Shown here: in pieces, positions 25,861 to 33,255 of the stretch
Position numbering within the stretch: the first letter of the stretch is position 1
Layout of the letters: every line of letters begins with the position of its first letter
Source of the DNA: Candidatus Woesearchaeota archaeon
Lineage (GTDB): Archaea; Nanobdellota; Nanobdellia; Woesearchaeales; JAFGLG01
Assembly: GCA_016928155.1 (NCBI GenBank)
Contig: JAFGLG010000007.1
Coordinates: 62,001 to 126,000 of the forward strand
Direction of reading: 5' to 3'
Length of the DNA: 64,000 nucleotides
Notes under the pieces: model-generated
What the model was told of the DNA's origin: nothing
What the model saw: only the letters and a program-made list of their open reading frames with translations
The model's database searches: none
Translations under genes and position numbers: made by a program

Positions 25861-26073
25861 TTTAATCTGGCATCAGTGAAAAACAATGCTGTTTATAAAT
25901 CTTTTCTAATCTGTTTTGTCGTCGAGAAAATTTATTTTCGTTTGGCATTAGTGACGAATCTCGTCTAGGAAAAAGTTTTTTCAGCAAAGTTTAAATAGTA
26001 GTTGGGCTTGGATGCAATCATTGATTATCAATCAAAAAATGAGGTTTATAAACCAAAAAACTGGGGTGAAAAG

Positions 26074-27309
26074 ATGAATAGACTTCTAGTAATGTCAGTT
26101 CTGATGCTAACAATAATATCCCTTTCCGGATGCGTCCAGACTCCGAATGAGGGGATTGTCAATGTGACAATCGAGGATTCTGAAGATGCCGGTATGACAA
26201 CCACGACAGGCGATGCTGTTGCGGATGCTGACGAGGCAGATGCATACGAGAGCGGGGAAGATGAGACAGCAGAGGCCGAAGATGAAGAATCTGAAGCAGA
26301 GACCTCCAAGACTGCAAAATACAAGATAGCTGTCACAGAAGGCGAGCTCGTATCACTGAAACCGAAAGCCGTCGATCCAGATGCAGATACCATAAAATAC
26401 ATGTTCTCAAAGCCGCTCGATTCAGAAGGGAAGTGGCAGACAGAGACAGGTGACGCCGGAGAATATTATGTCGATGTCACTGCGACAGACGGCAAGCTCT
26501 CAGCCACCCAGACAGTCCTTGTAGTTGTCAATTCGGCAAACAAGGCGCCTGTCATGACAGAGTTAGAGGACATAACAGTGAATATGGGCGAGACTGTGAA
26601 GATCAGCCCGAAAGCCACTGACCCTGATGGGGACAAGATAAGCTTCTCATTCAGCGGATGGATGACCAAGCCTTCCTACACCACCCAGAAGGGTGATGAG
26701 GGCAAGCACAAGGTCACAGTCACTGCGACAGACGGCACAAGCAGTGTCTCCAAGGACATGTATGTGACAGTCATCAAAGAGAACCACGCGCCTGAGATCA
26801 CAAGCCTCACTGCAGAGCCAGTGCTGGAGAAAGATACAGTGGTACTGGATGTCGAGGCTGAGGATGAGGACGGCGATGAGGTCTCAATAGTGTTCCCTGA
26901 ACCATTCAATGATGATGGAGAATGGCAGACCAAAGTGGGAGATGCAGGGACATACAGGGTTGTAGTGACTGCCACAGACGGAGAGAAGAGCGCTTCAAAA
27001 GAGGTCATTGTCAAGGTCAATGCCCTGAACAATGCGCCAGTGCTCGAGCCTATCAAGGACATCACAGTCAAGGAAGGAGAGACTGTAACCCTGAATGTCA
27101 AGGCATCAGATCCGGACGGGGACAAGGTCACAGTGATCATCTCAGGATGGATGAACACGAACACCAAGAAGACAGGCTATGATGATGCAGGAGAGTACCA
27201 GGTCACAATCAAGGCATCAGACGGCCAGGTGGAGACAACACAGACTGTGGAGATAACAGTCCTTGACCAGAATAGGCCGCCGGTCTTTGTAGATATCGTG
27301 CAAGGCTAA
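26074..27309 (+). CDS. Lipoprotein with Ig/cadherin-like repeats
   Basis: A 411-residue protein from ATG 26074 with ribosome site GGGGTGAAAAG. A lipobox (ISLSGC) gives a lipid anchor, followed by a Thr/Asp/Glu-rich linker. Then about four repeats of 85-90 residues share a pattern such as ITVNMGETVKI, DPDGDK and a closing TATDG; these are Ig-like or cadherin-like beta sandwiches, with DPDGD as the likely calcium site. It is a surface protein, perhaps for adhesion. The next gene encodes related repeats. Confidence 0.8.
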   Translation: MNRLLVMSVLMLTIISLSGCVQTPNEGIVNVTIEDSEDAGMTTTTGDAVADADEADAYESGEDETAEAEDEESEAETSKTAKYKIAVTEGELVSLKPKAVDPDADTIKYMFSKPLDSEGKWQTETGDAGEYYVDVTATDGKLSATQTVLVVVNSANKAPVMTELEDITVNMGETVKISPKATDPDGDKISFSFSGWMTKPSYTTQKGDEGKHKVTVTATDGTSSVSKDMYVTVIKENHAPEITSLTAEPVLEKDTVVLDVEAEDEDGDEVSIVFPEPFNDDGEWQTKVGDAGTYRVVVTATDGEKSASKEVIVKVNALNNAPVLEPIKDITVKEGETVTLNVKASDPDGDKVTVIISGWMNTNTKKTGYDDAGEYQVTIKASDGQVETTQTVEITVLDQNRPPVFVDIVQG

Positions 27310-27333
27310 TCTTTTTTTTTTCTTTTCTTTAAA

Positions 27334-28494
27334 ATGTCTAAAAAGGTATTTTTGGGAATATTGATGATTCTGCTGATACCTGCAGTCCTATCCCTGAAAT
27401 TCACAGTGACAGAAGGAGACCTTTTCAAGCTGAAAGTGACAACATCAGATCCAGACAATGACAGGGTGAGCTTAGTATATTCTGATCCTCTCGATGACAA
27501 AGGAGAATGGCAGACAAGTATCGGGGACGCAGGAGACTATAAGATAAAGATAGGGGCGACAGACGGAAAAGATGTAGCGTATGAGACAATAGATCTTGAA
27601 GTGGCGAAATATGTCAATTATGAGCCAGAGATAACCACACAGCCCAATTATCATATAGACGAGGGCCAGACACTTGAGCTCAAGGTTGCAGTGAGAGACA
27701 AGAACGGAGACAAGATCGACATCACATACTCCGGTTACATGAGTGCAGAGTCTAAATACATAGACTATGATCAGGCAGGGAACTATACATCGTTTATCAC
27801 AGCAACAGACGGCGTCAATACAGCCAAGGAAGAGATCAATATATTCGTGAACAACATCAACCGGGCACCAGTGATCGCTAACCTTTCCGACATCAAGGTC
27901 AGCGAGGGAGACCAAGTCTTGATACAGCTCGATGCATTCGATCCAGACGGGGATGAGCTCCACTTCTGGTACGAAGAGAATGTCACAGGCGCAAACATAA
28001 CCGACAGAGTGTTCTACTGGACACCGCCGCATTATCTGCTGGACAACAAGCCTCTCAAATTCTATGAGCAAGAGCCAAGCAACACCTACTTCATAACATT
28101 CGGTGTGAGCGATGGAGCAGATGAGGCATACCAGCAGGTTGGGATAAGCGTGCAGAACAAGAACCTTGTGCCTGTGCCTGTATCGATACAGCCTGCAGAA
28201 AGCCACATCCTGATATGGACAGGAGAGTCAGTCAAGTTCTTTGCGAATGTTACAGACTGGGATGAGGATGAACTGGAGTATACATGGAGCTTCGGGCCGC
28301 TCTCCAAGATGACAGGCACACAGGCAATAGAAAAACATTATGCCAAAGCAGGCGACCATGAAGTCAGGCTCGAAGTATCAGATGGCAAGGACAAGATAAT
28401 CAGGACATGGAAAGTGCATGTTTCAGAACCATACAAGCCTCTTGAGCCAGCATATGTTGAAAGGACATCAAAGACATATGTGCTTTGGTCCTAA
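27334..28494 (+). CDS. Secreted Ig/cadherin-like repeat protein
   Basis: A 386-residue protein with a cleavable signal (VFLGILMILLIPAVLS). The first repeat (VTEGDLFKLKVTTSDPDND, then GDAGDYKI, GATDG) is close to the repeats of the preceding lipoprotein, followed by two or three more and a final PKD-like domain (DEDELEYTWSFG). Probably part of the same surface complex. The two genes are 24 bases apart. Confidence 0.8.
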   Translation: MSKKVFLGILMILLIPAVLSLKFTVTEGDLFKLKVTTSDPDNDRVSLVYSDPLDDKGEWQTSIGDAGDYKIKIGATDGKDVAYETIDLEVAKYVNYEPEITTQPNYHIDEGQTLELKVAVRDKNGDKIDITYSGYMSAESKYIDYDQAGNYTSFITATDGVNTAKEEINIFVNNINRAPVIANLSDIKVSEGDQVLIQLDAFDPDGDELHFWYEENVTGANITDRVFYWTPPHYLLDNKPLKFYEQEPSNTYFITFGVSDGADEAYQQVGISVQNKNLVPVPVSIQPAESHILIWTGESVKFFANVTDWDEDELEYTWSFGPLSKMTGTQAIEKHYAKAGDHEVRLEVSDGKDKIIRTWKVHVSEPYKPLEPAYVERTSKTYVLWS

Positions 28495-28637: not shown

Positions 28638-28736
28638 ATATATCAAAATATATCCTATGAAATTTTTACTGATTGTAAAAGGATTAGGACAAAGGATGTA
28701 TAAGAACCAGAAAAAAATAAGAAGTTATGACCAAAA

Positions 28737-28841
28737 ATGGCGATGCCGCGCAAATGGCAGCCCATTTGATAGGCTATTCAAGTGGGACTTTCGCTCTTGC
28801 TTCAGTCCCACGGACTTTGTTAGCAGAAAAAAAGAAACAAA
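28737..28841 (-). repeat. tRNA-associated hairpin unit, copy C
   Basis: In plus orientation the unit holds a short tRNA-Met end match (ATGGCGATG, 28737-28745), hairpin CAAATGG-CAGC-CCATTTG (28751-28768), a TATTCAA spacer and hairpin GTGGGACT/AGTCCCAC (28782-28811). The second hairpin and its flank (TATTCAAGTGGGACTT ... CAGTCCCACGGA) closely match the unit at 33.1 kb. It is followed by another tRNA-Met 3' copy. Confidence 0.65.
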
Positions 28842-28983
28842 ATGGCGATGGCGGGATTCCCAATGATGCATTAATGTTCTGTTGCATCCTTTTGAGCCCG
28901 CGACTTCGCAGCAGCTGAGATGTCAGCTGGCACCATCGTGGGTTTCGACCTTTGGTCTCAAGCCCACATAAAAAAGAAAAGAA
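28842..28983 (-). repeat. tRNA-Met 3' copy plus hairpin unit, copy B
   Basis: 28842-28907 duplicates the 3' part of the adjacent tRNA-Met, from the variable loop through the T arm with its intron to the acceptor, differing mainly inside the intron. Then come hairpin CAGCTGA-GATG-TCAGCTG (28912-28929), GCACC and hairpin GTGGGTTT/AAGCCCAC (28938-28967). The intact tRNA-Met gene follows. The order [tRNA 3' copy]-[two hairpins]-[tRNA] is the same as at 33.1 kb. Confidence 0.7.
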
Positions 28984-28984
28984 G

Positions 28985-29142
28985 TGGCGATGGCGGGATT
29001 CTCAATGATGCTAGCATTCTTTGCATCCTTTTGAGCCCGCGACTTCCAGATTTCTGTGCCAATATGATCTATCATCGCTTTCGCTCAACACTCATAATTG
29101 ACTTATGAGTCTGGCACTCTAACCAGGCTGAGTTACATCGCC
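28985..29142 (-). tRNA. tRNA-Met(CAT), elongator type, two introns
   Basis: Acceptor GGCGATG (29136-29142) pairs with CATCGCC (28986-28992), discriminator A. D arm ACTC/GAGT, anticodon arm CCAGA-CTCATAA-TCTGG, variable AAGTC, T stem GCGGG/CCCGC. A 52-base intron (29052-29103) follows position 37. A 31-base intron (28999-29029) interrupts the T loop after CTCAAA, with central helix CTCA/TGAG and 3-base bulges. The spliced RNA is 75 bases. A1-U72 and three G-C anticodon pairs of an initiator are absent, so it is the elongator or an Ile2 precursor. Confidence 0.85.
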
Positions 29143-33066: not shown

Positions 33067-33159
33067 ATGGACCCTGCGGGAGTCGCACAGCTGCAAAGTC
33101 AGCTGGCACCTTATTCAAGTGGGACTTGCACTTTGTTTCAGTCCCACGGATTTCTTAAT
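33067..33159 (-). repeat. tRNA-associated hairpin unit, copy A
   Basis: 33067-33088 repeats exactly the 3' end of the adjacent tRNA-Ala gene (33160-33181). Then hairpin CAGCTG-CAAAGT-CAGCTG (33088-33105), GCACC, TTATTCAA and hairpin GTGGGACT/AGTCCCAC (33119-33147), and the full tRNA-Ala. The two hairpins and linker resemble copies B and C at the tRNA-Met locus. The layout looks like integration at a tRNA 3' end by a non-autonomous element. Confidence 0.7.
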
Positions 33160-33160
33160 A

Positions 33161-33255
33161 TGGACCCTGCGGGAGTCGCACCCGCGGCCTCTTCCGTTCT
33201 CTGCCGTCTTCAGACCGGCTGCGAGGGAAGCGCTCTACTACTGAGCTAAGGGCCC
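33161..33255 (-). tRNA. tRNA-Ala(CGC) with canonical intron
   Basis: Acceptor GGGCCCT pairs with AGGGTCC (33162-33168, one G-U), discriminator A. D arm GCTC/GAGC; anticodon arm CTTCC-CTCGCAC-GGAAG after removal of a 23-base intron (33197-33219) between positions 37 and 38; T arm GCGGG-TGCGACT-CCCGC. The anticodon CGC gives alanine. The intron junction shows bulges CAG and AAC around a short helix. The T loop has no intron here. Its 3' end is copied at 33067-33088. Confidence 0.88.

Follow-up and report, generated by a model that had tools for sequence, protein, structure and literature searches.

A family of pseudoknotted elements with abutting duplications at tRNA genes and other gene ends in Woesearchaeales archaea

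The window, that is the whole 64,000-nucleotide stretch of DNA analysed here, contains tRNA genes for methionine and alanine that are each followed by copies of a small structured element, which we call E. Both tRNA genes, the E copies and the duplicated segments lie on the minus strand. E is about 60 nt long and consists of a hairpin (H1), a linker and a second stem (H2), after which comes a copy of the DNA from just upstream. The tRNA gene with anticodon CAT, overlooked by ARAGORN, is interrupted twice, by one intron in the anticodon loop and by another in the T loop (about 29001-29032). Positions 26002-28494 of the window hold two neighbouring open reading frames with repeated PDxDxDxD-type domains, typical of surface proteins. 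The features of the two tRNA loci are these:

28985..29142, minus: tRNA gene with anticodon CAT (Met), cmscan with RF00005, 43.2 bits, two inserts
28970..29046, minus: original segment A (3' part of tRNA-Met, T-loop intron, T-rich trailer), from local alignment with its copy
28907..28967, minus: element E of subtype II (Met1), from covariance models R1/R2 and the pseudoknot test; in the R1 alignment
28967-28938, minus: H1 of Met1
28937-28934 with 28922-28919, minus: pseudoknot of Met1, S1a GATG with loop CATC
28929-28923 with 28918-28912, minus: H2 of Met1
28828..28907, minus: copy A' of the tRNA-Met 3' part, T-loop intron and T-tract, abutting the Met1 element
28746..28811, minus: element E of subtype I (Met2), from the covariance models and the pseudoknot test; in the R1 alignment
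28811-28782, minus: H1 of Met2; linker TTGAATAGCCTAT
28768-28762 with 28757-28751, minus: H2 of Met2; pseudoknot AGCC with GGCT
28734..28745, minus: short copy CATCGCCATTTT of the tRNA-Met 3' end, about 12 nt, in unit 2, anchored test score 12
33161..33255, minus: tRNA-Ala (anticodon CGC) with intron, cmscan with RF00005, 56.2 bits
33160..33180, minus: original segment A at tRNA-Ala, TGCGACTCCCGCAGGGTCCAT, an exact 21-nt match to its copy
33083..33147, minus: element E of subtype I at tRNA-Ala, R2 score 75.9 bits, E-value 3.6e-16
33067..33087, minus: copy A' of the tRNA-Ala 3' end, beginning directly after H2, 21/21 identical

A sequence-only reading of this DNA had described units of two hairpins behind tRNA-Met, each ending in a copy of the tRNA 3' end, one of them with the T-loop intron. 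The units are real, and the intron is indeed present in the unit 1 copy, whose 77-80 nt or so align with the original at a score of 106 against a shuffled maximum of 26; the unit 2 copy is weak when taken alone (unanchored score 29 versus 27 shuffled). The GTGGGACT hairpin, which had been called the second, comes first in the direction of the tRNA, while its recurrence at tRNA-Ala is borne out by the motif TATTCAAGTGGGACTT, which has exactly two occurrences in the window, one at Met and the other at Ala (0.04 expected). H1 is a hairpin as described, and the other one is part of a pseudoknot. Met1 and Met2 belong to different subtypes and are therefore not plain duplicates of one another.

Covariance model R1, built from four aligned units and run on the host genome (1.48 Mb, 99.7% complete), returned 10 copies, six of them new in addition to Met1, Met2, Ala and Thr; one more, the eleventh, has enlarged hairpins and was recognized by eye behind a tRNA (L021). 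The host copies are dispersed and fall into subtype I, (TTC)GTGGGACT-GA..GA-AGTCCCAC-TTGAATARGGTGCCAGCTGA..CAGCTG, and subtype II, GTGGGCTTGAGC..GCGAAACCCAC-RATGGTGCCAGCTGACATCTCAGCTG. With model R2, E was found in 71 of 287 genomes of the host's order, about three false genomes being expected at the E-value used, with 0 to 14 copies per genome; the suggestion of a family recurring at tRNA loci thus holds for the host genome and well beyond it. When 371 genomes were drawn from the phylum, matches at E-values of 1e-4 or less were confined to the host's order. Named records with E comprise 13 archaeal contigs, mostly Woesearchaeota but also Nanoarchaeota bins, and among these contigs is the complete chromosome of archaeon GW2011_AR15, so E is no assembly artefact. 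A strict sequence pattern matched nothing outside the host genome among 60 relatives, where the covariance model alone succeeded; three exact patterns gave no E in viral contigs, and the Met units used as query had no match in plasmids. Nothing in Rfam 15 matches E, only tRNA and 5S rRNA reaching threshold in the loci scanned, and searches of several loci at E-values up to 1 gave no match for it either, in agreement, as regards Rfam, with the earlier statement that no named family is like this. The family appears to be undescribed, is order-wide and has a firm structural signature.

The fold is supported by compensatory changes in its helices, as in structured RNA families. Among the 10 host copies pairing holds in 93% of cells, both sides have changed in 11 of 15 pairs, and covariation is 0.467 versus 0.169 after shuffling, a score reached by none of 500 shuffles. 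H1 is a hairpin with a tandem-GA internal loop, and the H2 loop pairs with the linker just before GUGYC to form an H-type pseudoknot, with pair sets as different as GAUG/CAUC (Met1), AGCC/GGCU (Met2) and UAGC/GCUA (Thr), and CUCGC/GCGAG, UUCG/CGAA, GAAA/UUUC and others elsewhere. When linkers and loops were exchanged between copies, the mean Watson-Crick length of the pseudoknot, 3.12 in 101 distinct copies, fell to 2.18 (maximum 2.39), and copies with at least four pseudoknot pairs numbered 32 of 101 against 8.0 expected (maximum 15), a test that is inflated by kinship among copies, yet one in which many different pair sets take part. The hairpin with its tandem-GA loop and the pseudoknot are, by covariation, the conserved part of E, and we have hardly any doubt that E is a real, widespread, pseudoknotted family. 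G-U pairs outnumber A-C appositions by about 17 to 4 (a manual count without two odd pairs and a conserved C-A position), which leans towards RNA over single-stranded DNA as the folded form. A hammerhead-like reading of CTTGAG..CGAAAC was rejected for its wrong topology, and integron attC was rejected with its core motifs absent by eye.

At 105 sites, the sequence running on from the end of E was sought within 250 nt upstream, at a score of at least 12. Copies abutting E were found at 32 sites (about 30%), compared with 7 of 735 windows displaced downstream (1%); a detectable duplication is missing at about 70% of sites. Duplications measure 12-111 nt, with exact copies of 21 nt at tRNA-Ala, 24 nt at tRNA-Thr and 31 nt at a tRNA-Pro (antisense), and of 17-45 nt in relatives. 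In the clearest cases only 1-5 nt separate the original segment from H1, and the start of the copy coincides with the end of H2 or is no more than a few bases away from it, a geometry expected of insertion with target duplication.

The sequence-only reading had the elements insert at tRNA 3' ends and rebuild the tRNA each time. A whole tRNA with a copy of its end beyond E is seen at many tRNA loci. Of 109 sites, 49 have a tRNA no more than 300 nt away according to ARAGORN, which misses tRNAs with T-loop introns; an estimated 2% or so would have one by chance. The restriction to 3' ends does not hold. Where E lies in sense orientation the tRNA is broken in the T arm and its 3' part is repeated; where it is antisense the tRNA is broken in the D loop and the 5' part is repeated (L046, L047, L049 and others in the host). 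E also lies, mostly antisense, inside tRNA introns of the anticodon loop (tRNA-Gly, tRNA-Leu and others) and of the T loop. In several families it directly precedes tRNA-Leu genes, and it also occurs downstream of a 5S rRNA gene (L075) and at the ends of protein genes (L044 in the host, with a copy of 111 nt; L086; L152); both orientations relative to the host genes occur. Tandem arrays of copy plus E are found in three genomes (G129, G169, G087), and in a fourth, G254, E is carried by two repeat families spread over several contigs, whose multiple copies have inverted ends, GTATTTGTTTAGC.. and GCGTTATTGAAAAGCTC.., and unrelated flanks. Many of these copies stand at contig ends.

Some individual loci of the host genome deserve a description of their own. 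In the 111-nt copy of a protein-gene 3' end (L044, G000 C7:173621) the 36 nt next to E are identical, and beyond them the differences are mostly conservative codon changes, as if one of the two copies came from another strain; A-to-N mutagenesis of the DGR type was rejected for this copy, since differences also occur outside A. At C15:45406-45630 (L009), two other hairpin units (GGTCC-stem-ACTACC) come after tRNA-Gln(TTG) and end in the tRNA-Gln 3'-like GCGGGGCTA and GCGTGGGCTA. In the second of them the first hairpin carries an E-like loop, GAACATAAGTGA, on a different stem, and these units are possibly a third subtype of E. On C5, about 85080-85330 (L003/L048), a 245-nt region whose ends pair in a 12-bp stem, GGCTCTGTCCGG/CCGGACAGAGCC, has a folding energy of -95 kcal/mol, with E at its centre and T-runs to either side; it has no Rfam match and is possibly a full-length E RNA. 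tRNA-Asn is followed, at about C15 12120-12240 (L007), by another tRNA-like gene, GGGCCCGTAGCTTAG..CGGGCCCA, which appears to have a T-loop intron and was overlooked by ARAGORN and Rfam.

Copies at corresponding sites of related genomes bear on what happens to E once in place. Three species of a single genus have E behind the same hairpin sequence, ATAGGCCCCC..GGGGGCCTAT, and the short stretch after H2, CAGTTGGGG, is common to all three, so that the site looks orthologous. There the H1 stem changes from GTGGGATT/AATCCCAC to GTGCAAC/GTTGCAT and GTGCAAT/GTTGCAC with the fold kept, and the stems have diverged over most of H1 and part of H2 without loss of pairing; the two copies of the flanking segment are more alike within a genome than between genomes. 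Furthermore, E beside one tRNA is common to G118 and G190, with its first pair compensated, and in family f20 an E shared within a tRNA-Leu intron has the inner stems AC/GU, CC/GG and GC/GC. Persistence of the fold through such changes implies that E is either useful in place or renewed, and renewal could proceed by recombination or by quasi-palindrome repair. An empty site was sought in the genus of G209, where both relatives proved to have a diverged E at the corresponding position. A clean empty site did not turn up, and for that reason insertion is deduced from the duplications. Three species (G209, G245, G175; L168-L170) also share a conserved small hairpin, ATAGGCCCCC..GTTCTGTTTTCTCAACCACCCCC..CCAGGGGGCCTAT, adjoining an open reading frame, with no Rfam match at the gathering threshold.

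The main rival of insertion is a function of the RNA in situ, with E a module for processing, protecting or regulating the adjacent tRNA, 5S rRNA or mRNA. The copied 3' strand would then offer the host RNA's 5' strand a second pairing option, closing a stem around E, and E is in fact often enclosed by such a stem. The compensated H1 and H2 changes at the orthologous site of the three species are what this explanation would predict, as are the tRNA-linked copy common to G118 and G190 and the compensating inner stems of the tRNA-Leu intron copy. However, E occurs in either orientation relative to its host gene and is antisense inside introns, copy numbers run from none to 14 per genome with relatives often lacking E at a given tRNA, and quasi-palindrome repair could also yield compensating stems. 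We regard a function of this kind, including the closing-stem arrangement, as a serious but unlikely account of the copies.

Less probable still, in our view, is that E plus its copy is a miniature or decayed integrative element, in which the duplication represents the attL and attR of a tyrosine recombinase and E an arm beside the core. Archaeal attB sites do lie in the 3' and 5' halves of tRNA genes, including intron-bearing ones, and at the ends of other genes (PMC8371274), and it has been proposed that tRNA genes receive introns through integration, with mobile elements as the carriers (PMC3293823). The host tyrosine recombinase genes (L013, C9:47008, and L022, C2:21383; PF16795 and PF00589) start directly behind tRNA-Phe and a tRNA-Leu. 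An integrase acting in trans, as suggested earlier, is possible; such enzymes exist here, but beside tRNAs other than those bearing E, and no E was detected at the integrase-bearing tRNAs. Elements of the SSV, pNOB8 and pTN3 types resemble E in targeting tRNA 3' and 5' parts and gene ends, in leaving the gene whole and in having direct target repeats (PMC8371274), and a direct repeat of part of the tRNA beside an intact tRNA is what we find; E differs from them in being about 60 nt long and geneless, with a conserved pseudoknot and repeats that differ by site. Each site has a duplication with a sequence and length of its own, a pattern that does not fit the specificity of any one recombinase, and all copies would need to have shrunk to the same 60 bp. 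Tyrosine recombinases that target tRNA genes are the nearest known setting, yet one enzyme cannot give cores that differ from site to site, and we put them forward only weakly, as the sole enzyme candidates found in the host genome.

Other machinery gave less encouragement. A reverse transcriptase acting in trans, which had also been suggested, was not detected in the host genome, and is encoded in 4 of 23 E-carrying and 7 of 22 other genomes; Y1 HUH transposases are likewise missing from the host and occur in 9 of 23 and 7 of 22, respectively; and TnpB-like proteins over the cut-off number none in the host, 0 of 23 and 1 of 22. Links to all three enzymes were rejected on the grounds of absence from the host and no enrichment with E. 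It is very improbable that E serves as a TnpB/Cas12-type guide-RNA scaffold with the copy as its guide: a pseudoknotted RNA followed by a stretch identical to nearby DNA, and in some loci best conserved where it adjoins E, would suit such a scaffold, but neither the host nor 22 other E-carrying genomes have a TnpB-like protein over the cut-off, and a consistent flanking motif was not seen by eye. Plain local duplication of tRNA ends with chance hairpins, for which the tandem arrays of G129, G169 and G087 might speak, has next to no probability and as a full account is refuted by the covarying stems, the pseudoknot test, the recurrence of E at unrelated loci in 71 genomes and the different subtypes of Met1 and Met2.

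Comparison with other small elements also shows partial likenesses. Like MITEs and REP-like palindromic repeats, E is short, dispersed, non-coding and hairpin-forming and has no enzyme of its own; unlike them, and unlike DDE-type MITEs in particular, the tRNA-linked copies have 12-111 nt duplications instead of a fixed short one, no terminal inverted repeats seen by eye, and a pseudoknot, the copies riding inside the two inverted-repeat elements of G254 being an exception. IS200/IS605 derivatives (PATE, REP) go with a Y1 HUH transposase in the genome and insert without target duplication, whereas the host lacks the former and duplications abut E. SINEs and other products of target-primed reverse transcription share with E a structured RNA-like core, target duplications of variable length and a link to tRNA, but E has no tail, its host has no detected reverse transcriptase, and it is inserted in tRNA genes, not derived from them. 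Archaeal BHB tRNA introns, for which transposition has been proposed, occupy anticodon and T loops as some copies of E do; most copies, however, lie outside introns, in either orientation. In the E. coli tyrT operon, the units behind the tRNA gene (rtT RNA) each carry a copy of the tRNA 3' end, as E units do, but this is a single locus of long plain repeats and not a dispersed family with a conserved pseudoknot.

Our reading of the family is that its copies probably arose through insertion with long target duplications; the duplications are there to be seen, and insertion is what we infer as their cause. E would insert so as to leave a direct duplication of roughly 12 to more than 100 bp of target on its two sides, the second target copy beginning where H2 ends or no more than a few bases away. 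The copies that survive would be those at sites where the duplication, or a tRNA intron, keeps the gene whole: from the T arm to the 3' end in sense, from the D loop to the 5' end in antisense, in anticodon-loop and T-loop introns, and at the ends of 5S rRNA and protein genes. Such copies would persist with their fold maintained, either because the structure matters in place or because it gets renewed. We lean, with some reserve, towards regarding E as a mobile element that belongs to Woesearchaeales-type archaea, is non-autonomous and defined by its structure, leaves long variable duplications and is kept afterwards. Against a mobile element stand the orthologous copies that keep their fold through stem changes, which is unexpected of dead insertions, duplication lengths far more variable than those produced by known prokaryotic transposases, and the arrays of G129 and G169, in which plain local duplication also occurs. 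The majority of sites lacking a detectable copy, and the searches of viral contigs and plasmids that gave no match, count against it as well. More speculative, and to be held tentatively, is the idea of a new class of mobile element, in which a pseudoknotted core of about 60 nt, as RNA or single-stranded DNA, inserts into the loops of RNA genes on either strand, duplicates 12 to more than 100 bp so that the gene survives, can seed tRNA introns, and long keeps its fold, without a reverse transcriptase or known transposase.

The family bears on how archaeal tRNA genes acquire introns and become disrupted, and on whether structured elements of such small size are capable of movement in archaea. 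Its hosts are a poorly studied group of tiny symbiotic archaea, in which the covariance model makes both questions testable.
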